A stretch of 57,380 bases of DNA from Pseudomonadota bacterium (GTDB lineage Bacteria; Pseudomonadota; Alphaproteobacteria; SHVZ01): the NCBI GenBank assembly GCA_016195085.1, contig JACQAG010000083.1, positions 1 through 57,380 on the forward strand. The letters are read 5' to 3'. Within the stretch, counting starts at the first letter, position 1. Every line of letters starts with the position of its first letter. Both the position numbers and the translations under genes were made by a program. This document shows positions 46,958 to 57,380 of the stretch, piece after piece. The notes beneath the pieces were generated by a model. The model ran no database searches. It was not told where the DNA came from and saw only the letters and a program-made list of their open reading frames with translations.

Positions 46958-47548
46958 ATGATTTTCTATCCCCAGGAACGAATTGCCATGTTCATCGACG
47001 GCGCCAACCTCTATGCCGCCGCCCGAGCCCTTGGCTTCGACATCGACTATCGCAAGCTCTTGGATCTGTTCGCGAGCAAGGGCCGGCTCATCCGCGCCTT
47101 CTATTACACGGCCCTCATGGAAGATCAGGACTATTCCCCGATCCGCCCGCTGGTCGATTGGCTCGATTACAACGGCTACACCATGGTGACGAAGCCGATG
47201 AAGGAATTCACCGACGCCTCCGGCCGGCCCAAGCGCAAGGGCAACATGGATATTGAGCTCGCCATCGACGTCTTGGAGATGGCGCCCCATCTCGACCATA
47301 TCGTGCTGTTTTCCGGCGATGGGGACTTTCGCCGCCTGGTGGAAGCCACCCAACGCAAGGGCGTGCGCGTGAGCGTGGTGTCAACCCTGCGCTCGCAGCC
47401 GCCGATGGTGGCCGACGAGCTCCGGCGCCAGGCCGACAGCTTCGTCGAGCTGGCCGATCTCGCCCCGCACATCTCCCGCGTCCATCAGGGCCCGCGCGAG
47501 CCGATGCCAGTCCGCGAGGAGCCCGGGCGCCCGGCGGCGGCGCAGTAG
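46958..47548 (+). CDS. NYN-domain protein (LabA/DUF88-like, putative ribonuclease)
   Basis: 196 residues from ATG 46958, with AAAAGGA about 9 bases upstream. The PIN-like NYN fold is shown by MFIDGANLYAAARALGFDID (first acidic residue), RPKRKGNMDIELAIDVLEMA (second) and HIVLFSGDGDFRRLVEATQR (third cluster). This acidic set is expected to bind metal and cut RNA. The last 25 residues are proline-rich and variable. It diverges from rpoZ. A TTGACA lies at 46838-46843 in the 257-base gap, but a matching -10 is weak. Confidence 0.88.
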   Translation: MIFYPQERIAMFIDGANLYAAARALGFDIDYRKLLDLFASKGRLIRAFYYTALMEDQDYSPIRPLVDWLDYNGYTMVTKPMKEFTDASGRPKRKGNMDIELAIDVLEMAPHLDHIVLFSGDGDFRRLVEATQRKGVRVSVVSTLRSQPPMVADELRRQADSFVELADLAPHISRVHQGPREPMPVREEPGRPAAAQ

Positions 47549-47713: not shown

Positions 47714-48385
47714 ATGGACGCCGAGGCGCCCGCCCGCGACTGCCCGCTCTGTCCGCGCCTCGCGGAGTTCCGCCAAACGCAGCGTCAGCACCACCCCGAC
47801 TGGCACAATGCGCCGGTCGCGTCCTTCGGAGCCGGGACGGCGCGGCTCTTGATCGTCGGGCTCGCCCCGGGCTTGAAGGGCGCCAACCGCACCGGCCGGC
47901 CGTTCACCGGCGACTATGCGGGCGAGCTGCTCTATCCCATGCTGATCCGCCACGGCTTTGCCCGCGGCGACTACGCTGCCAGGCCCGATGACGGACTCGA
48001 GCTCGTCGACTGCCGGATCACCAATGCGGTCCGCTGCGTGCCGCCGGCGAACAAGCCGACCCCGGCGGAAGCCACAATCTGCCGCCGGTTCCTCATCGCC
48101 GAGATGGCGGCGATGCCGCGGCTGGAAGCAGTGCTGGCCTTGGGTGCCATCGCCCATGGCGCGGTGCTGAAGGCCTCGGGCGAGCGGCTGGCCGCGCATC
48201 CCTTCCGCCACGGTGCGCTCTATCGCCTGAAGCGGCCGCACTGGCTCGCCGACAGCTATCATTGCTCGCGCTACAACACCAACACCGGGCGGCTGACCGA
48301 GGCGATGTTCGCCGAGGTGCTGGCGCAGTTAAAGGCCACGCTTGACCGAGCACCGGGGCGCCCGGAGCAATCTGCCATCGAGTAG
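47714..48385 (+). CDS. uracil-DNA glycosylase, family 5 (UDGb), iron-sulfur type
   Basis: 223 residues. Four cysteines fit the 4Fe-4S cluster: C10 and C13 in DCPLCPRLAEFR, C108 in AVRCVPPANKP and C123 in ATICRRF. Motif 1 is GLAPGLKGANRTGRPFTGDY (about 49-68), which in family 5 lacks the aspartate or asparagine of other families. The late motif is DSYHCSRYNTNTGRLT (about 180-195). It removes uracil and related damaged bases from DNA. Its 3' end is copied twice downstream (49061-49172 and about 52322-52476), with foreign-looking genes between the copies. Confidence 0.9.
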   Translation: MDAEAPARDCPLCPRLAEFRQTQRQHHPDWHNAPVASFGAGTARLLIVGLAPGLKGANRTGRPFTGDYAGELLYPMLIRHGFARGDYAARPDDGLELVDCRITNAVRCVPPANKPTPAEATICRRFLIAEMAAMPRLEAVLALGAIAHGAVLKASGERLAAHPFRHGALYRLKRPHWLADSYHCSRYNTNTGRLTEAMFAEVLAQLKATLDRAPGRPEQSAIE

Positions 48386-48421
48386 ATGGTGGATCGGCGC
48401 GCACGAGGAGGGCGGACCGCT

Positions 48422-48910
48422 CTAGCGATTTCGGTTCAAAGCGGCAACGCGGTCGACCAGAGTCGCCAGCGCAGTAATGATCTCAAGCGCGATGCCTTGC
48501 GGTGCACCCTTGATGTTGTGCCGCACCATCGCCCGCAATGCGTCGATCTGCACGTTGAGAATTCTGAGCTGTCGTCCTGTTCGCTCGCTCGGGCGCTCGA
48601 TCAGACGGCAAATCAACTCTGCCACATTGGAGATGGCCGGGTATCCGAAGCTGGCGCCTTCGCCGCGCAAGTTATGGGCGACTTCATAGATCTTCTTGGC
48701 AATGTCGGCGCTATCAGGGTGATCCGTCAGCTGGGGCAGCAGCACGCGCAACCGGTCAAGCGACTCCTTGGCGATGGTCCGATAGTTGACGCGCTGCAGG
48801 TGTCGCTTGGTCGCGCCTTCGGCCTTGGCAATGATGGCACGACCGCCCAACGGGACGCCTGGCCCGGTCTTGTCGCCCAGCTCGCGCGGCGGCTTGAGAA
48901 AGTCGGCCAT
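48422..48910 (-). CDS. orphan Hpt (histidine phosphotransfer) domain protein
   Basis: 162 residues from ATG 48910; a TTG at 48991 extends the frame by 27 residues. An Hpt helix is seen in AKKIYEVAHNLRGEGASFGY (about residues 72-91), where the histidine is the phosphorylation site and the G-x-G-A-S-F-G spacing matches Hpt domains. The C-terminal half is helical. Such proteins relay phosphate between a hybrid kinase and a response regulator. No kinase or regulator is adjacent. It lies between the intact udg gene and the first udg fragment, and is less GC-rich than the core genes. Confidence 0.72.
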   Translation of the reverse strand: MADFLKPPRELGDKTGPGVPLGGRAIIAKAEGATKRHLQRVNYRTIAKESLDRLRVLLPQLTDHPDSADIAKKIYEVAHNLRGEGASFGYPAISNVAELICRLIERPSERTGRQLRILNVQIDALRAMVRHNIKGAPQGIALEIITALATLVDRVAALNRNR

Positions 48911-49060
48911 CCAATCAGCCCACCAGATCGAGACCTTGTCAGCTCGAATGCCTAAGTCTTCCCCGTTGATCGTACGGAGCGGCGGAGGCAAAGAATCCCA
49001 AGTCTATAGGATTCATTCAACCGGGATTGAGGCAAGTGCTGCGCCCTCCGGGCAGCGGAT

Positions 49061-49172
49061 CTCTACGTATTGCCGGAACACCAATACCGGGCGGCTGACC
49101 GAGGCGATGTTCGCGGAGGTGCTGGAGCGGCTACGAAGTACGCTAGGCTCGGAACCCAGGCGCCGTGGATAG
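49061..49172 (+). pseudogene. truncated copy of the udg 3' end (copy 2)
   Basis: In frame, the segment reads STYCRNTNTGRLTEAMFAEV then LERLRSTLGSEPRRRG and a stop (49170-49172). It matches SYHCSRYNTNTGRLTEAMFA in the intact udg product with a three-residue gap. The DNA is nearly identical to 48277-48330 for about 45 bases, then diverges. No N-terminal glycosylase motifs lie upstream. It is a remnant, not a working enzyme. It marks the right border of the Hpt unit and the left border of the ABC importer unit. Confidence 0.8.
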
Positions 49173-49218
49173 CCCGAGAGCTTCGCGGCGCCTCGAATTA
49201 GGCCGGCCTTAAGACGTC

Positions 49219-49247
49219 GGCAGGGCCGTGCCGATCACGGCCCTGCC
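49219..49247 (-). terminator. terminator of the ATPase-less ABC importer operon
   Basis: GGCAGGGCCGTG (49219-49230) and CACGGCCCTGCC (49236-49247) form a perfect 12-base stem with loop CCGAT, 8 bases beyond the binding-protein stop codon. A U-tract is not evident, as is common in high-GC bacteria. It closes the leftward operon before the udg fragment. Confidence 0.7.
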
Positions 49248-49255
49248 GATCCGTC

Positions 49256-50038
49256 TCAGAAGCGCGGCAGCTCCTTGTTGACGGTCTTCATCCACTTCTG
49301 CTGGAGCGCTTGGATCTCCTTGTTGGCCCACAGGAGATAGATCTCGGTGTTGAGCCAGCGCAAGAGGTCCGCATCGCCGCGACGCAGGCCAATGCCCATC
49401 GCCGCCTCGGCGACGACGAATTTGATTTCCAGCTTCGGGTCGCGGCCGATGATGGCGGCGGCGGTCGCGGCACTCGTCACCATGCCGTCGATCTGGCCGG
49501 CGAGCATCGCCTGGTTGGTCGAAGCGTCGTCGTCATAGCGCTGGATGTTGGTGCCTTCGACGGCCTTTTTGGTAGCGACGATGTCGTTGGTGGTCGACCG
49601 GGTGACGCCCAGGCGCTTGCCCTTGAAGTCATCCAGACTGGCGAGCGACAAGGCCTTGGGCGCCAGCGCCACCTGCTGATCGACATAGATCGCGTTCGAG
49701 TAGTTGATCGCCTTCGCCCGTTCGGCGGTGATCGAGAACGACGAGACCACGATGTCGACCTTGTTGGTGGTGAGGCTCGGGATGCGGGCGGCGGCGACGA
49801 TGTCGACGAACTGCGCCTTCACGCCGAGATCGCGGGCGATGAGCTTGCCCATGTCCACATCGAAGCCGTCGGGCTCCATGGTGGCATTGGTGATGCCGAA
49901 GGGTGGGGTGCCGAGCGAGACGCCGATGACCAGCGTGCCCCTCTTGATGACCTCATCCAGCGTGCTCTGGGCGTAGGCGGATGCCGAGGCGAATCCGACG
50001 AAGGCGAGCGCGGCGACGGCAGCAATCAATCTTTTCAC
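49256..50038 (-). CDS. amino-acid-type ABC transporter, periplasmic binding protein
   Basis: 260 residues from a GTG at 50038, preceded by GGGAGGA 5 bases away; the frame extends to 50110 without a ribosome site. The signal peptide ends ASAYAQ near residue 23. Family-3 binding-protein blocks are LDEVIKRGTLVIGVSLGTPP, FDVDMGKLIARDLGVKAQFV and VDIVVSSFSITAERAKAINY. It is the last gene of an operon with two permeases and a GntR regulator. It is clearly a different subfamily from the binding protein at 1432-2250. Confidence 0.9.
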   Translation of the reverse strand: MKRLIAAVAALAFVGFASASAYAQSTLDEVIKRGTLVIGVSLGTPPFGITNATMEPDGFDVDMGKLIARDLGVKAQFVDIVAAARIPSLTTNKVDIVVSSFSITAERAKAINYSNAIYVDQQVALAPKALSLASLDDFKGKRLGVTRSTTNDIVATKKAVEGTNIQRYDDDASTNQAMLAGQIDGMVTSAATAAAIIGRDPKLEIKFVVAEAAMGIGLRRGDADLLRWLNTEIYLLWANKEIQALQQKWMKTVNKELPRF

Positions 50039-50048
50039 GAGTTCCTCC

Positions 50049-50717
50049 CTAATCGATGAGTGGTACCGGACGACGACCGAGGAGCCGCGCCTCGAGGGCA
50101 CGGCTCGCAAGAGACAGCGGAAAGCAGAGCGAGAAGTAGAAGACGGCGACCGTCATGAACACCGGCAGCGGCTGGAACGTAGCGTTGCTGACGATCTGAC
50201 CGGCGCGGGTCAGCTCCGTGTAGCCGATGATCGAGGCGAGTGCCGTGTTCTTGACCAGCTGGACCAGGAACCCGACCGTCGGCGGCACGGCCGAGCGCAC
50301 TGCCTGCGGGACGATGATCAGCAGCATGGTCTTCGGCCAGTCGAGGCCGAGCGCGTAGGCGCATTCCCATTGCCCTTTCGCGATCGACTGCAGCGCCCCC
50401 CGCCAGATCTCGCCGAGGAAGGCGCTGGCATAGAGCGTGAAGGCGATCGCCGCCGCCATCAGCGGCGGCACCTGCAGCCCGAGTGCCGCGGCGCCGAAAT
50501 AGGCGAGGAAGAGCTGAACCAGAAGCGGAGTCCCCTGGATCGCCGTGATGTAACCGCGTGCAAGCAAATTGAGGGGGACGCTCGGCGCCGTCCGCAGCAA
50601 GGTAAGCAGCAGGCCCCCGACGGTGCCGCCGAGGAAGGCGAGCGAGGACAGCATCAACGTCCAGAGCGCCGCCTGGCCGAGGAAGAAGACGTGATTGGCC
50701 GAGAAGGTCTGGAACAT
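50049..50717 (-). CDS. amino-acid-type ABC transporter, permease
   Basis: 222 residues. It has GGTVGGLLLTLLRTAPSVPL in the first membrane region, AFTLYASAFLGEIWRGALQS, then GQWECAYALGLDWPKTMLLI IVPQAVR in order, the EAA loop of HisM/GlnP permeases (about 120-145). The stop lies 10 bases upstream of the binding-protein start. It forms the channel with the permease encoded upstream. No ATPase gene accompanies them. Confidence 0.9.
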   Translation of the reverse strand: MFQTFSANHVFFLGQAALWTLMLSSLAFLGGTVGGLLLTLLRTAPSVPLNLLARGYITAIQGTPLLVQLFLAYFGAAALGLQVPPLMAAAIAFTLYASAFLGEIWRGALQSIAKGQWECAYALGLDWPKTMLLIIVPQAVRSAVPPTVGFLVQLVKNTALASIIGYTELTRAGQIVSNATFQPLPVFMTVAVFYFSLCFPLSLASRALEARLLGRRPVPLID

Positions 50718-50727
50718 CGTCCGGCCC

Positions 50728-51399
50728 TCAGCCCCCGGCGTGACGGAAACGGAAGATCACGCGGTCGAGGCGGGCGAAGGCGGTGCGGAACATCAACGTG
50801 AAGGCGAGATAGACCGCGGCGACGACGATGAAGGCTTCGAAGGCGCGGAAGGTCAGGCCTTGGATATCGGCGGCCGCACCGGCAAGCTCGGGCGTCGAGA
50901 TTGTCGAGCAGACCGATGAGGCCAGCATCAAGAGGATGAATTGGCTGGTGAGTGCCGGATAGACCGCGGCCAGCGCCGGCGTCAGGATGACGTGGCGGAA
51001 GATCAGGAGCCGCGAAAGGCCGAGCGCGCGGGCCGCCTCCACCTGGCCTCGTTCCACCGTCTCGATGCCGGCGCGCAGGATCTCCGTTACATAGGCGCCG
51101 GCATAGATGGTGAGCGCCAGGATCGAGGCGGCGACCGACGTCAGCCGGATGCCGAGCGCCGGCAGGCCGAAATAGACGATGTAGATCTGCACCAGGAACG
51201 GCGTATTGCGGATCGCCTCCACGTAGACAATGACCGCGCCGCGCAGAATCGGATTGCGGCTCCGTTGCGCCAGCGCGCCGAGAAGGCCCACGGTCATGCC
51301 GAGGATCATGGCGGCGGCGGAGAGTGCCAGGGTCAGTGCCGCACCCTTCGCCAGGAGATCGCCGCGAGCGAAGGTGCCCGAGAAGTCGAAGTAGAACAT
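50728..51399 (-). CDS. amino-acid-type ABC transporter, permease
   Basis: 223 residues from ATG 51399; the frame extends to 51450 without support. It reads MFYFDFSGTFARGDLLAKGA, then AAMILGMTVGLLGALAQRSR, AIRNTPFLVQIYIVYFGLPA and the EAA-like GQVEAARALGLSRLLIFRHV (about 125-145). It is the first transporter gene after the GntR regulator, 78 bases downstream of it. It is a separate paralog from the other permease. Confidence 0.9.
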   Translation of the reverse strand: MFYFDFSGTFARGDLLAKGAALTLALSAAAMILGMTVGLLGALAQRSRNPILRGAVIVYVEAIRNTPFLVQIYIVYFGLPALGIRLTSVAASILALTIYAGAYVTEILRAGIETVERGQVEAARALGLSRLLIFRHVILTPALAAVYPALTSQFILLMLASSVCSTISTPELAGAAADIQGLTFRAFEAFIVVAAVYLAFTLMFRTAFARLDRVIFRFRHAGG

Positions 51400-51477
51400 T
51401 TTCCGCCTGGTCTGTTTCGTCTGGGCGGTGTGTCCCGCCTTCGCCTGCATGGATGCGCCAACGCCCCTGGGGTCGGC

Positions 51478-52194
51478 TCAGCTCCGTCGTCGCTTCGAGG
51501 ATGTGGGGCCGGACGCCGACGCCGTCTTCACAGCGGACCGAGAGATCATCTCCCGCACGATCGCGTCGCGGGCCTGGGCGAGGTGCCGGCGCAAGGCACG
51601 CTCCGCCTCGTCCTGGTTGCCGGCGGCAAGTGCCACCAGAATCGACTGATGCTCGTCCATCGTCCCTTGGGCCCGGTCAAGGCGCATGGAGAAGCGGCGG
51701 ACCAGATGCGACTGGTCGATCAGCGCGGCATGGATGGCGGCAAGCCGACGATTCCCGGTCGCCGACACGATGAGCACGTGGAACCGGTTATCGGCGGCCA
51801 GCGCCGCATCGGCGCGGACGATGCGCCCGCGCTCGCAGGCGGAGGTGAAGTCGGCAATGCTCCGGGTGAGGTCGCCGAGGAGGGGACGCTCAGCGCCCGC
51901 ACCGATCAGCATGCGGACGGCGGCAGCCTCGACGATCTCGCGCGCCTCGTAGAGGTCGGCGACGTCGGCGGCATCGAATTCGCGGATGACGGTGCCGCGC
52001 CGCGGCAGCACCTCGACCAGCCCCTCGCTCTCCAGTTGCTTCAGCGCCTCCTTGATCGGCGAGACGCTCACCGTCAGCTCCTCGGCGAGACGGTCGACGT
52101 CGAGGCGATGACCGGGCTCGAACTCGAGCGCCAGAATGCGGCGTCTCAGCTCGGTGTAGCTCTGAACGGCAAGGGTTTCCCGGATGATCGCCAA
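51478..52194 (-). CDS. GntR-family regulator, FadR/FCD type
   Basis: 238 residues from a TTG at 52194. The N-terminal winged helix (about 10-75) has SYTELRRRILALEFEPGHRL then VDRLAEELTVSVSPIKEALK (recognition helix) and LEVLPRRGTVI-like turns (LVEVLPRRGTVIREFD). The C-terminal FCD domain is helical, with NRFHVLIVSA and DEHQSILVALAAGNQDEAER, where histidines usually bind a metal and a carboxylate ligand. It heads the importer operon and probably controls it and itself through the palindrome at 52206-52224. The inducer is unknown. Confidence 0.9.
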   Translation of the reverse strand: MAIIRETLAVQSYTELRRRILALEFEPGHRLDVDRLAEELTVSVSPIKEALKQLESEGLVEVLPRRGTVIREFDAADVADLYEAREIVEAAAVRMLIGAGAERPLLGDLTRSIADFTSACERGRIVRADAALAADNRFHVLIVSATGNRRLAAIHAALIDQSHLVRRFSMRLDRAQGTMDEHQSILVALAAGNQDEAERALRRHLAQARDAIVREMISRSAVKTASASGPTSSKRRRS

Positions 52195-52205
52195 GGTAGG
52201 CCAGT

Positions 52206-52224
52206 CTGAAATTTAAAATTTCAG
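52206..52224. promoter_or_regulatory. perfect palindrome upstream of the GntR gene, likely operator
   Basis: CTGAAATTT (52206-52214) and AAATTTCAG (52216-52224) are perfect inverted repeats around one base, 11 bases upstream of the GntR start codon. AT-rich dyads at this position are typical binding sites of FCD-type GntR regulators. I infer autoregulation of the GntR-transporter operon. No second copy was seen in the window. Confidence 0.6.
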
Positions 52225-52321
52225 TTGGAGGATGAAGGGCGGTTCGGATCCTGTCAATGACCGGCCCCGGGCATCATCATTGCTCCGCTTCGCCCTGTGC
52301 GGATCTGCCGTCTGGGACCAC

Positions 52322-52476
52322 GAGGCGCGGATCATTGGCCTCGCCTCCGGCCTCAGGAGCGCGGGCTATGGCTCGCCGACGGCGATCCCTACGCGCGCCG
52401 CTTGACCGAAACGATGGTCGCCGATGTGCTGGAGCAGCTCACGGGGACGCTGGGCGCGCACCTACGGCACGCCTGA
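52322..52476 (+). pseudogene. decayed udg copy (copy 3), motif 1 joined to the C-terminus
   Basis: Two glycosylase pieces can be read in different frames. At about 52326-52366, ARIIGLASGLRSAG resembles motif 1 of the udg product (ARLLIVGLAPGLKGA). At 52369-52476, WLADGDPYARRLTETMVADV then LEQLTGTLGAHLRHA and a stop resembles its C-terminus (WLADSYHCSRYN, RLTEAMFAEVLAQLKATL; about 12 of 18 residues equal in the last block). A frameshift and an internal deletion of most of the gene separate them. The fragment ends 48 bases before the tracrRNA hairpin. Confidence 0.62.
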
Positions 52477-52523
52477 GCAAACAGAGAGCTGCCGGTCTCG
52501 CCCGTTGAAGGCTCTTGAGGAAT

Positions 52524-52600
52524 CCCCCTTGGCCTTTCGGCCAAGGGGTAATCCTTCGAGTGGATAAACCACCTTACCGTGGTTTCCCAACCGACTCCCG
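52524..52600 (-). ncRNA. predicted tracrRNA of the type II-C CRISPR system
   Basis: The anti-repeat is at 52577-52599. The plus strand here reads CCGTGGTTTCCC, one changed base, then ACCGACTCCC, matching bases 2-24 of the CRISPR repeat in crRNA sense at 22 of 23 positions. The minus-strand RNA would therefore pair with crRNA along 23 bases with one U-U mismatch. After the anti-repeat come a short stem (52560-52563 with 52569-52572) and a perfect 10-base terminal hairpin (CCCCTTGGCC, 52525-52534; complement 52539-52548; tetraloop GAAA in the RNA). The order anti-repeat, small stem, GC-rich 3' hairpin is that of known tracrRNAs. The length is about 75-80 bases, and transcription runs away from cas9. 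Confidence 0.85.
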
Positions 52601-52606
52601 ACGCAG

Positions 52607-52635
52607 AGATTGCAACCCCTCCTATGCAATGTCAA
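52607..52635 (-). promoter_or_regulatory. predicted promoter of the tracrRNA
   Basis: On the minus strand TTGACA (52635-52630) is followed by a 17-base spacer and CAATCT (52612-52607). A start about 7 bases further on falls near 52600, exactly where the anti-repeat begins. The -35 box is perfect and the -10 box is weak. The agreement between predicted start and anti-repeat edge supports the call. Confidence 0.6.
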
Positions 52636-52669
52636 TAATCGCTGACTTGTGGATAACTCGGCGAATCCG

Positions 52670-55600
52670 ATGGCAACAGCCGCAAACCTTCGAAAAGGCC
52701 TGATCTTAGGCCTCGATCTTGGAATCGGCTCGTGCGGATGGGCCGTCATCGACGAGACGAAGCCTGCGGGCCGCATCATCGACATGGGCGTGCGGACCTT
52801 CGATGTGCCCGAAACCGATAAAGAGCGAACACCGACCAATCAGCTTCGCCGCGAACATCGAGGGCTTAGGAGAGTCATCGGACGCCGACGCCAACGCATG
52901 AACGGGCTGCGGCAACTTTTCCAAGACGCGGGATTGATTGCCGACGACCGCAAGGGCGCGCTCAAGATTCGGGGCCTCGATCCTTGGGCATTGAGAGCGG
53001 ATGGGCTGGAGCGGAAGCTGACCGGACCGGAATTGGCCGTGGCGCTCGGCCACATTGCGAAGCATCGCGGTTTCAAGTCAAACAGCAAGCGCGATCGCGG
53101 CGCGAACGCGCCCAAGGATTCCTCGAAGATGCTGGGCGCGATTGACGCTACGCGCGAGCGTATGAAGACCTACCGCACGGTTGGCGAGATGTTTGCCAAG
53201 GACCCAGCGTACATCGCCCGCAAACACAATCGAGATGGCGACTTCACCCGATCGATTCTCCGCGGCGATCAAGAGCAGGAGGTACGCATCCTGTTCGAAC
53301 GCCAGCGTGCCGCCGGCAATGTCATGGCGACCGCAGAGCTGGAGGCAAGGTTCACCGACGCGGCTTTCTATCAGCGACCCTTGGCCGACAGCGAGGACAA
53401 GGTCGGCGAATGCCCGTTCGAGCCAGGCGAAAAACGGGCGGCGAAGCGATGCTATTCATTTGAGCTATTTCGCTTGCTCTCGCGGCTCGCGGCGGTGCGC
53501 ATTCAATCGTTCTCGGAAGAGCGGGCGTTGACGCCAGAAGAAATCGACGCCGCAAGCAAGGATTTCGGCGCGTTCCGAGGAATGACCTTCAAGCGAATGC
53601 GCAAGCGTATAGAACTACACGAAGAACAGCGCTTTGCCGGTGTCCCGCTCGACGACGAGGGACGACGCGACGTCGTCGCAAGGACCGGCGACATGGCTTC
53701 CGGCACCTATGCGCTCCGGAAGATCCTGGGCAGCGCCTGGAGAACGTTGCTGGCTGCCCCCGGCACGCTCGACCGGATCGCTTTCGTACTCTCCTTTCGC
53801 GAAGACCCGAAGTCGATCCGCGCCGGTCTCGATGAGATCGGTCTCGATCAAGTCATCGTCGACGCCGTGATGAAGGGCGTGGAGGACGGGGACTTCGGCC
53901 AGTTCAGCGGAGCGGGCCATATCTCCGCCAAAGCGTGCCGGAAGCTGATTCCCCATCTCAAGCACGGTCTTGTCTATTCGCGAGCGTGCGAAGAAGTGCC
54001 TGGTTACAATCACGCTGCGCCGCCCGAGGCCGATCCAAGCAAGATTGGCAGTCCCGTTGCCCGCAAGGCGCTGACGGAGGCAATCAAGCAAGTGCGTGCC
54101 GTCATACGCGAGCACGGCTTGCCGGAGCACGTTCACATCGAGCTCGCACGCGACGTCGGGAAGAGCAAGGAAGAGCGCGACGAGATAAGGATCGGCATCG
54201 ACAGGCGCAATAGGGAAAAGGACCGCCTCCGCGAGCATTTCCTGGAAACGGTCGGGAGCGAAGCAACGAGCGGCGAAGACCTCCTCCGCTTCGAGCTCTG
54301 GCGCGAGCAGAACGGCCGTTGCCTCTACACAGACCGGGTAATCCATCCGAACGCCATCGTCGCGTCAGACAACTCGGTGCAGATCGATCACATTCTGCCG
54401 TGGAGCCGCGCTGGCGACGATTCGTTCGTCAACAAAACGCTGTGCCTTGCGAGCGCCAATCAGCAAAAGAAGGGCCGCACACCTTGGGAATGGTTCAAGG
54501 CCGAGCGGACCGATGCCGAGTGGGCGGCCTTCGCCGAGGGCATCGAAACCAACAAAAGCATGAAGGGCCGCAAGAAGCGCAACTACCTTCTCAAGGATTC
54601 GTCGATTCTCGAGGAGAAGTTCCGTCCGCGAAACCTCAACGACACGCGCTACGCTTGCCGTCTCTTGGCCGATGTGGTGGCGCGGATGTACCCAGACGAT
54701 GGGCGGCGTCATGTTCTCGCCCGGCCCGGCCGCTTGACGAGCCTGTTGCGCAGGGGATGGGGCGTCCAAGACTTGAAGAAGGACGCGGATGGCAAACGCG
54801 TCGATGACGACCGCCACCACGCGCTCGACGCGCTCGTCGTCGCAGCGACGACGGAGGGCGAACTGCAAGAGCTGACTCGCGCGTTTCAGGAAGCGGAAAA
54901 GCTCGGCGCGCATCGCGACTTCAAAAGGCTTGATCCGCCATGGCTCGGTTTTGCAGCGGAGGCAAGAGCGAAGCTCGACGCCGTCTTCGTCTCGCGGGCC
55001 GAGCGACGGCGCGCACGCGGAGAAGCGCATGGCGCAACCATCCGTCAGATCGTCGAGACCGATGGAAAGCATATCGTCTATGAGCGCAAAAGCGTCGACG
55101 CGGTGACGGAAAGCGATCTGGCGCGAATCAAGGATGCCGAGAGAAACGCCAAGCTGGTCGGAGCGCTCCGGGAATGGATCGCGGCCGGCAAGCCGAAAGA
55201 CCGGCGCCCGCTGTCTCCAAAGGGAGATCCCATCGCGAAGGTTCGACTGCGGACCAACAAGAAGGCTGACGTCCTCATACGCAGTGGCGTTGCCGATCGG
55301 GGGGAAATGGTGCGCGTCGATGTCTTCCGAAAGAAGAACCGGAGGAATTTGTGGGAGTATTTTTTTGTTCCGGTCTACCCGCATCAGGTGGCCAACGCAA
55401 TGGATTGGCCGACGCCGCCAAACAAGGCCGTGCAGGGTAACACGCCGGAAGAGCTGTGGCCCGACGTGGACGAGACCTACGAGTTTCGCTGGAGCCTCTA
55501 TCCGCTGAGCTTCGTTGAGCTGATAAAGTCCGACGGCGAAGTGATCGAGGGTTACCTGCGAGGTGTCAACCGCAACACGGGAGCATTGGCGGTCTCTCCC

Positions 55601-55741
55601 CATCACACCAAACAGGAGGTTCGAGACGGTATTGGCGGTAGGACGCTCAAGGATTTACGCAAGTTCACCGTTGATCGCCTCGGTCGCCGCTTCGAGATTG
55701 CGCGGGAGATCCGCACATGGCATGGCGCGGCCTGCACGTAA
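52670..55741 (+). CDS. cas9: Cas9 endonuclease, type II-C
   Basis: 1023 residues from ATG 52670; a GTG at 52649 adds 7. Neither has a clear ribosome site. Positions are counted from the ATG. RuvC-I is LILGLDLGIGSCGWAVID with D16. The arginine-rich bridge helix (HRGLRRVIGRRRQRMNGLRQ) spans about 63-82. RuvC-II is HVHIELARD with E491. The HNH nuclease is SVQIDHILPWSRAGDDSFVN (H574), then CLASANQQKKGRTPWEW with N597. RuvC-III is DDDRHHALDALVVA with H717 and D720. All catalytic residues are present, so both DNA strands should be cut. The C-terminal 200 residues form the wedge and PAM-reading region (YFFVPVYPHQVANAMDW). Size and the absence of csn2 or cas4 fit subtype II-C. Confidence 0.96.
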   Translation: MATAANLRKGLILGLDLGIGSCGWAVIDETKPAGRIIDMGVRTFDVPETDKERTPTNQLRREHRGLRRVIGRRRQRMNGLRQLFQDAGLIADDRKGALKIRGLDPWALRADGLERKLTGPELAVALGHIAKHRGFKSNSKRDRGANAPKDSSKMLGAIDATRERMKTYRTVGEMFAKDPAYIARKHNRDGDFTRSILRGDQEQEVRILFERQRAAGNVMATAELEARFTDAAFYQRPLADSEDKVGECPFEPGEKRAAKRCYSFELFRLLSRLAAVRIQSFSEERALTPEEIDAASKDFGAFRGMTFKRMRKRIELHEEQRFAGVPLDDEGRRDVVARTGDMASGTYALRKILGSAWRTLLAAPGTLDRIAFVLSFREDPKSIRAGLDEIGLDQVIVDAVMKGVEDGDFGQFSGAGHISAKACRKLIPHLKHGLVYSRACEEVPGYNHAAPPEADPSKIGSPVARKALTEAIKQVRAVIREHGLPEHVHIELARDVGKSKEERDEIRIGIDRRNREKDRLREHFLETVGSEATSGEDLLRFELWREQNGRCLYTDRVIHPNAIVASDNSVQIDHILPWSRAGDDSFVNKTLCLASANQQKKGRTPWEWFKAERTDAEWAAFAEGIETNKSMKGRKKRNYLLKDSSILEEKFRPRNLNDTRYACRLLADVVARMYPDDGRRHVLARPGRLTSLLRRGWGVQDLKKDADGKRVDDDRHHALDALVVAATTEGELQELTRAFQEAEKLGAHRDFKRLDPPWLGFAAEARAKLDAVFVSRAERRRARGEAHGATIRQIVETDGKHIVYERKSVDAVTESDLARIKDAERNAKLVGALREWIAAGKPKDRRPLSPKGDPIAKVRLRTNKKADVLIRSGVADRGEMVRVDVFRKKNRRNLWEYFFVPVYPHQVANAMDWPTPPNKAVQGNTPEELWPDVDETYEFRWSLYPLSFVELIKSDGEVIEGYLRGVNRNTGALAVSPHHTKQEVRDGIGGRTLKDLRKFTVDRLGRRFEIAREIRTWHGAACT

Positions 55742-56616
55742 CGAAGCCGTCGCGGCTGGCTTTGGCCGACGGACAAGTGACGATCGCCCAAGACGATGGG
55801 GACGTGCGCGTCCCGCTCGAAGATCTTGCCTGGATCGTCCTCGATACGCCGCAATCTACTTTGACCGGAAGCTTGCTTTCCGCGTGCATGTCGGCGGGCA
55901 TTGCATTGATCGCGACCGACGAGACTCACACGCCGTCCGGCGTCCTGCTACCCTTTCACCGGCATTTCCGTCAGGGTGAGATCGCGCATCGGCAGGCGGC
56001 TATAGGCGCGCCCCTGAAGAAGCGGCTCTGGCGAAGGATCGTGCGCGCCAAAATCGAAAATCAGGCGGAAGCGCTCCACGTCGCCCACCGCGGCGGCGCG
56101 CGCACGCTTCGGGAAATGGCGCATCTCGTCGGGTCCGGCGACCCGCGCAACGTCGAGGCAAGGGCAGCCAGGTATTATTGGACGCAGCTATGGCCCGAGT
56201 TCCGCCGCGAGGATGGCGGGGATAAGCGGAACAAGCTGCTGAATTACGGCTACGCCGTTGTTCGGGCCGGCGTTGCTCGCTCGCTCGTGGCTGCGGGCCT
56301 GCTTCCGGCCTTCGGCCTCAACCATGCGAGCGTCACGAACGCCTTCAATCTCGCAGACGACATCGTCGAGCCGTTTCGGCCCTTCGTCGACTCCCTGGCG
56401 TGGAAGACGGCGGATGCGGGCCGGCCGTCGCGTGACGACCTCACAATCGACGACCGGCGCGCCATGGCGGGCGTTCTTCTCGCCGAAGCCAAGATGTCGG
56501 ACGAAACCGTGACGTTGCTCGTGGCCGCCGAGAGGACGGCGGAATCGCTGGTGCGTGCGATGGAGGGCTCGACGGCTGATATTCTCGAGCTCCCGGCTTT
56601 TGCTTCTCGAGCGTGA
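55717..56616 (+). CDS. cas1: CRISPR-associated integrase Cas1
   Basis: 299 residues. The metal-binding residues are E147 in GDPRNVEARAARYYWTQLW, H203 in AFGLNHASVTNAFNLADD, and D215/E218 in ADDIVEPFRPFVD. The type II Cas1 start TKPSRLALADGQVTIAQDD is recognisable. Together with Cas2 it inserts new spacers into the array. The gene overlaps the cas9 end by 25 bases, implying one transcript and coupled translation. Confidence 0.95.
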   Translation: MAWRGLHVTKPSRLALADGQVTIAQDDGDVRVPLEDLAWIVLDTPQSTLTGSLLSACMSAGIALIATDETHTPSGVLLPFHRHFRQGEIAHRQAAIGAPLKKRLWRRIVRAKIENQAEALHVAHRGGARTLREMAHLVGSGDPRNVEARAARYYWTQLWPEFRREDGGDKRNKLLNYGYAVVRAGVARSLVAAGLLPAFGLNHASVTNAFNLADDIVEPFRPFVDSLAWKTADAGRPSRDDLTIDDRRAMAGVLLAEAKMSDETVTLLVAAERTAESLVRAMEGSTADILELPAFASRA

Positions 56617-56625
56617 GCGCTTTTG

Positions 56626-56955
56626 ATGAAAGTCGAAGAGGTCCGCATCTTGTGGATGTTCGTTTTCTTCGATTTGCCGGTCGGGACCAAGGGCGAGCGG
56701 CGCGCCGCGACGCGTTTCCGCAATTTTCTGAAGGACGACGGTTATATGATGCTGCAATGGTCGGTATATGCGCGCGTGTGCCGCGGCGAGGAGGCGGCCG
56801 AGAAGCACGTTCAGCGCGTCACCAAGAATTTGCCGGGAAAAGGCAGCGTGCGAGCCCTGCAAGTGACCGATAAGCAATACGGTCGGATGCGACTGTTGCT
56901 CGGAGAGATGACGAAAAATGAGAGAGTCGCCCCTCAGCAGATGGTCCTGCTCTGA
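56626..56955 (+). CDS. cas2: CRISPR-associated protein Cas2
   Basis: 109 residues from ATG 56626. The ferredoxin-like fold starts RILWMFVFFDLPVGTKGERR with the conserved aspartate D16, then FRNFLKDDGYMMLQWSVYAR and RALQVTDKQYGRMRLLLG. It is the structural partner of Cas1 in spacer integration. It follows cas1 by 9 bases. Only this three-gene set (cas9, cas1, cas2) is present. Confidence 0.94.
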   Translation: MKVEEVRILWMFVFFDLPVGTKGERRAATRFRNFLKDDGYMMLQWSVYARVCRGEEAAEKHVQRVTKNLPGKGSVRALQVTDKQYGRMRLLLGEMTKNERVAPQQMVLL

Positions 56956-56987: not shown

Positions 56988-57013
56988 CATTTCCAATAGC
57001 TTCGATCGCTGGG

Positions 57014-57379
57014 AGCCTACCGGATGGGAGTCGGTAGGGAAACCACGGCGCGGGGGTCCCTTGAGCCGTACAGATAGGCAGCCTACCGGATGGGAGTCGG
57101 TAGGGAAACCACGGCAGCTTGGATCGCGCCTCGACAGGAGACAGCAGCCTACCGGATGGGAGTCGGTAGGGAAACCACGGCGAAAATGCATCGACCTGGA
57201 AGGGGCGACGGAGCCTACCGGATGGGAGTCGGTAGGGAAACCACGGCCGGCAATTACGATGTCGTCGGGATGCGGGCAGCCTACCGGATGGGAGTCGGTA
57301 GGGAAACCACGGCGAACTGCGTCCCGGTGTTTATCGCCAGACGAGCCTACCGGATGGGAGTCGGTAGGGAAACCACGGC
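57014..57379 (-). CRISPR. CRISPR array, six 36-base repeats seen, continues beyond the window
   Basis: Identical repeats start at 57014, 57080, 57146, 57212, 57278 and 57344. Each is 36 bases, and all five complete spacers are exactly 30 bases, typical of II-C. In crRNA sense (minus strand) the repeat begins GCCGTGGTTTCCCTACCGAC and ends CCGGTAGGCT. Its first 24 bases carry the anti-repeat match, so crRNA reads leftward, toward cas2. The last base of the window (57380) begins another spacer, so the array and its leader end lie to the right. All six repeats are identical, with no decayed terminal repeat. Confidence 0.97.
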
Positions 57380-57380
57380 C

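Follow-up and report, generated by a model that had tools for sequence, protein, structure and literature searches.

The convergent junction between the core genes udg and smpB in an alphaproteobacterial genome (G000) holds a stack of cargo units separated by truncated copies of the udg 3′ end. The window, the whole stretch of DNA analyzed, is the complete 57,380-nucleotide contig C83, whose end falls inside a CRISPR array. At least 11 kb is stacked at this single core-gene junction, compared with the abutting udg and smpB genes of same-family relatives. The best explanation is one-sided homologous recombination, either homology-facilitated illegitimate or of the Campbell type, with DNA from related strains, which is probably how the stack was built. 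The junction would then constitute an insertion hotspot without mobility genes of its own. It is the udg–smpB junction, rather than the udg 3′ end alone, that best describes the target.

Relics and cargo at the udg–smpB junction

The intact uracil-DNA glycosylase gene udg borders the stack on the left (Table 1). It is classed as family-4-like, with a score under the family cut-off of TIGR00758. Two truncated copies of its 3′ end, relics 1 and 2, follow in the window. In relic 1, positions 49077–49128 align with 48275–48326 of the intact gene. The alignment score of the decayed relic 2 was reached by none of 1000 dinucleotide shuffles, and its similarity to udg is not that of a chance match, the outcome that the original prediction had regarded as fatal to its reading. 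That prediction had placed the copy at ∼52322–52476. The part from ∼52358 stands, whereas an extension back to 52322, which would include a udg N-terminal motif, was rejected as not significant because 26–100 of 500 shuffles were as good.

Relics 3 and 4 lie on contig C31, so that G000 contains an intact udg and four 3′-end relics, two in the window and two on C31; a whole-genome DNA search of G000 found none elsewhere. After the array start, C31 continues in order with relic 3, a toxin–antitoxin pair, relic 4, a 92-residue ORF of no known family, smpB and dapA. The CRISPR repeat, a common spacer and the gene order in relatives would join C83 to C31 through the array. Nine exact CRISPR repeats are found in G000 on the same strand, six at the C83 end and three at the C31 start, and none elsewhere in that genome. 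The stack would accordingly be ordered as udg, Hpt, udg′, importer operon, udg′, CRISPR–Cas9, udg′, toxin–antitoxin, udg′, ORF and smpB. Alignment and shuffle statistics bore out the earlier reading of an intact udg end followed by two truncated, diverged copies at about the places given, and Pfam and TIGR hits matched the proposed order of the Hpt gene, importer operon and CRISPR–Cas unit among them. The suggested search for another udg fragment past the array yielded relics 3 and 4.

Among those cargo genes that matched a known family, no integrase, transposase or other recombinase was recognized, in line with the absence of a visible integrase noted originally; some small ORFs lack any match. 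Several cargo units have a composition unlike that of the host, and that of the CRISPR–Cas unit is atypical. The Hpt family has five further copies in G000 at 46–55% identity, none of them flanked by gene-end relics; each same-family relative has one close copy. In 464 kb of G000 (∼10% of the genome), the remaining repeats are mostly REP-like palindromes and paralogous genes, and no cluster comparable to the udg relics was found in this portion.

Table 1. Features of the udg–smpB junction in G000 (window coordinates unless contig C31 is named)
Feature	Position	Strand	Evidence
NYN-domain gene, upstream of udg	46958..47548	+	PF01936, E 1e-39; kept beside udg in most fetched relatives
udg, family-4-like uracil-DNA glycosylase, intact, left core-gene border	47714..48385	+	PF03167, E 3.8e-27; NYN-udg-smpB-dapA order in relatives
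Cargo unit 1, Hpt-domain gene (48422-48991)	48386..49060	-	PF01627
udg 3′-end relic 1 (NTNTGRLTEAMFAEVLERL...), own stop codon	49077..49172	+	94% over 52 bp, E 6e-18; tblastn 64% over 36 aa
Cargo unit 2, amino-acid ABC importer and GntR/FCD regulator	49173..52330	-	PF00497, PF00528 twice, PF00392/PF07729
Terminator-like hairpin (unit 2)	about 49218-49250		read from sequence
Importer binding protein (unit 2)	49256-50110	-	
Importer permeases (unit 2)	50049-50717 and 50728-51450	-	
GntR/FCD regulator (unit 2)	51478-52194	-	
Palindromic operator-like site (unit 2)	about 52207-52225		read from sequence
udg 3′-end relic 2, decayed, internal deletion	about 52358..52476	+	80% over 49 bp, E 4e-7
Cargo unit 3, type II-C CRISPR–Cas	52510..56955	.	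TIGR01865 (E 9e-184), TIGR03639, PF09827
Putative tracrRNA, between relic 2 and cas9	about 52510-52610	-	anti-repeat read from sequence
cas9; cas1; cas2	52649-55741; 55717-56616; 56623-56955		
CRISPR array	57013..57380, resumes at C31 start (L031:1-166)	+	exact repeats
udg relic 3	C31, 402-545		90% over 144 bp
Toxin–antitoxin pair	C31, between relics 3 and 4		TIGR02683/TIGR02684
udg relic 4	C31, 1313-1363		86%

The junction in relatives and in a second genome

The gene order in relatives consists of the NYN-domain gene and udg followed by convergent smpB and dapA. In three genomes of the same family but another genus (G003, G005 and G006), a single udg and smpB converge and abut, providing the empty-site relatives anticipated from the window. 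In other relatives, 0.1–6.4 kb separates udg from smpB, and the intervening genes differ: mandelate racemase-like and AstE-like genes, sulfatases, glutathione peroxidase and O-methyltransferase, or an MFS transporter. The intervening gene may be ancestral in some taxa, and hence not every gap represents cargo. No udg tails were observed in the udg–smpB intervals of those relatives or in 80 named loci. The same two core genes flank cargo that varies among relatives and is missing in some, as in a core-gene-flanked hotspot.

Orphan udg tails were found in two of 385 genomes across the class, G000 and G188. In a class-wide comparison with smpB, only G056, besides G188, shows two matches among the 367 genomes with a match, and it is thus a candidate for smpB fragments. 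G188 belongs to another family and is independent of the window's case; the same udg–smpB junction contains other cargo and at least three udg relics. Its assembly consists of multiple contigs, which may mix strains. On contig C98, udg is followed by a 632-residue ORF (L060:1688-3586) and then by a second, near-identical udg end of 88 bp (97.7%), which forms a direct repeat with sharp ends. The ORF has a GC content of 52% compared with 68% nearby. It matches no known family and, of the inserts beside udg in G188, looks the most recent. In that genome the C-terminus of the intact udg is unusual and is fused to cargo-side sequence.

Contig C45 of G188 starts with another copy of the udg end, followed by msrB, udg and smpB scraps, a 162-residue ORF, and YdjM and GGACT genes. 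C45 (L061:1) begins at the exact base where the udg repeat of C98 begins and is possibly an empty-site strain variant. Contig C89 contains, toward smpB, a partial GGACT gene, an smpB fragment (residue ∼42 to the stop codon), a joined udg relic, a small ORF, a GmrSD-like gene and intact smpB–dapA. The truncated smpB is positioned head-on to the udg relic. The solid smpB relics are those of G188. In G000, the highest-scoring smpB match anywhere in the interval adjoins relic 4 in the same orientation as in G188. It was equalled in six of 2221 control windows (about 0.3%), which corresponds to ∼1% by chance over four relics, and is suggestive of an smpB fragment beside relic 4.

Probable recombination with DNA from related strains

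The better-kept relics diverge mainly at synonymous positions. The C89 smpB fragment differs from intact smpB by ten synonymous codon changes and one nonsynonymous change. Under neutrality, 8.4 nonsynonymous changes are expected, and a count as low was obtained in none of 20,000 simulations. Such mostly synonymous changes indicate that the allele had evolved elsewhere under selection, and the fragment would most simply be a piece of a selected allele from a related strain. Pooling of relics 1 and 3 and the G188 88-bp repeat gave six nonsynonymous changes versus 12.7 expected (P 0.0005), and relic 3 by itself has a synonymous bias (P 0.009). The more decayed udg relics follow a neutral pattern. 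These observations support the early suggestion that the pieces derive from related strains.

In the proposed mechanism, incoming DNA from a related strain would carry part of udg (or smpB) together with different cargo and would undergo homologous recombination on one side only. The other end would be closed by an illegitimate joint slightly inside the resident gene, or a circularized fragment would integrate via a single crossover. In each event, the working udg would acquire a new 3′ end, a cargo unit would be added, and the old udg 3′ end would be displaced as a relic, sometimes along with the 3′ part of smpB. Repeated events would generate the G000 stack. One-sided recombination would explain why udg is intact yet has a new 3′ end, how the old end was displaced, and why smpB pieces and allelic divergence are seen but no recognized integrases. 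The cargo–udg′ and smpB′–udg′ joints are sharp and nonhomologous and are found next to intact udg, the homologous anchor being presumed. Event order and DNA entry route are deduced along with the mechanism; ComEC and DprA, whose genes are widespread, are present in both G000 and G188. Neither genome has a Ku gene, which counts against the proposed illegitimate joining, and Ku-dependent end joining was rejected as its route.

One-sided illegitimate joining does not predict that four of the six relics (relics 2 and 4 and the G188 C98 and C89 relics) start within about three codons at an LADSYH motif. Moreover, the udg relic on C89 (80%, neutral pattern) appears to predate the adjoining smpB piece (96.5%), so a single event would not suffice for this junction. 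The clustered starts would be accounted for by site-specific integration, in which integrase-less small elements are inserted by a trans-acting recombinase at the conserved LADSYH...NTGRL codons of udg and each brings a replacement udg 3′ end. Prophages in icd supply a replacement gene 3′ end. The sharp ends of the 88-bp direct repeat and the fused C-terminus of the G188 udg also agree with such integration. However, relic 3 (90% identity) starts 65 bp upstream of the clustered starts, the start of relic 1 is ambiguous, and clustering at a conserved motif may be partly an alignment effect. Site-specific integration also leaves the smpB fragments at the junctions unexplained, fits poorly with the rarity of udg tails in the class and their absence from the named loci, and lacks an integrase-bearing element at udg in phage records, plasmid records and viral contigs; it is considered unlikely. 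An arrangement of small integrase-less cassettes, each carrying a udg 3′ end for attachment and mobilized by a trans-acting recombinase, is very doubtful. If true, it would represent a single-site cassette system on a housekeeping gene that is able to carry CRISPR–Cas9.

The original prediction of serial cargo insertion bordered by udg 3′ ends holds, and its choice of site-specific or homologous integration is narrowed. Recombination anchored by homology to related strains is the better fit, given the smpB fragments, the unequal relic starts and the mainly synonymous differences in the better-kept relics. A search for possible vehicles, whether phages, plasmids or viral contigs bearing udg, returned nothing relevant. 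MT835680, the sole strong match in phage records, represents an almost complete udg on a faecal contig and was rejected as a vehicle.

The smpB′–udg′ junction of C89 is exactly what a joint inside smpB and udg would yield in a local tandem duplication of the udg–cargo–smpB interval, followed by loss of redundant parts and with no related DNA imported. The GGACT gene, present twice in G188, would likewise be expected, but the two copies are on separate contigs and may represent strain variants. The differences between the GGACT copies are almost only synonymous, as are those of the smpB fragment, and resemble those between alleles of separate strains. Tandem duplication is improbable given this divergence, cargo that is different in every unit and the foreign composition of some units. 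Still less probable is insertion with long target duplication of the Helicobacter pylori restriction–modification type, in which ∼90 bp of target would be duplicated with the insertion of each unit. The near-identical 88-bp repeat around the G188 insert has the expected form, with an empty site known only from other genera. Long target duplication nevertheless leaves the smpB fragments and the synonymous relic divergence unexplained, and such duplications may themselves arise through this same recombination.

Known systems and the CRISPR–Cas unit

In the minimal mobile elements of Neisseria, variable cargo resides between fixed core genes, and mobility genes are not required. Integrase-free hotspots between core genes are turned over through flank recombination (PMC5635113). 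The udg–smpB junction is similar to both in its variable cargo, its fixed core-gene flanks and its lack of need for mobility genes. However, the hotspots and the Neisseria elements are explained by double crossover, a clean cargo swap, whereas the udg junction gains cargo and keeps relics. Insertion with long target duplication (Nobusato et al. 2000, as described in PMC1643837) also places cargo without mobility genes between direct repeats of chromosomal sequence. It typically involves restriction–modification genes and one duplication, in contrast to the udg stack, in which the relics have diverged and both neighbouring genes have left pieces.

Homology-facilitated illegitimate recombination has been seen in laboratory transformation and conjugation and in genome comparisons (PMC3240628, PMC2884548), and homology-assisted illegitimate recombination is described as a source of variable segments (PMC2884548). 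The mechanism proposed here shares with it homology at one end of the incoming DNA and an illegitimate joint at the other, but is deduced from a single locus that preserves a series of fossils. The closest published concept is the serial displacement of Vibrio cholerae T6SS effector–immunity modules, a sequential process that was proposed to occur via homology-facilitated illegitimate recombination (PMC5361080). In both cases, serial modules are anchored in a conserved gene, and old 3′ ends and cargo are shifted back into a remnant array. Unlike at the T6SS loci, a housekeeping gene for DNA repair serves as the anchor, the cargo is unrelated to it and includes CRISPR–Cas, and smpB relics are present. 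No paper on udg as such an insertion site was found.

The junction provides a readable fossil record of a chromosome collecting accessory and defence genes without mobile-element machinery. Among these accessory and defence genes are CRISPR–Cas9, the toxin–antitoxin pair and, in G188, the GmrSD-like restriction gene. The record suggests that core-gene hotspots can grow through addition, beyond exchange, and that flanking-gene remnants are usable for finding such events in other genomes. It also outlines a possible route for complete CRISPR–Cas systems into genomes without a transposon.

The CRISPR–Cas unit contains cas9, cas1, cas2 and an array without csn2 or cas4, which is the composition of type II-C, and no additional cas gene lies between cas2 and the array. 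Rfam gave only sub-threshold matches and did not recognize the putative tracrRNA. The spacer AGCTTGGATCGCGCCTCGACAGGAGACAG is located near both array ends (C83 and C31) and reflects a duplicated spacer or an assembly effect. On C31, a near-perfect 45-bp inverted repeat (L031:168-212) is positioned right after the last CRISPR repeat, on the apparent leader side. A 122-bp inverted repeat (79%; L031:257-378 and 1779-1900) encloses relic 3, the toxin–antitoxin pair, relic 4 and the small ORF.
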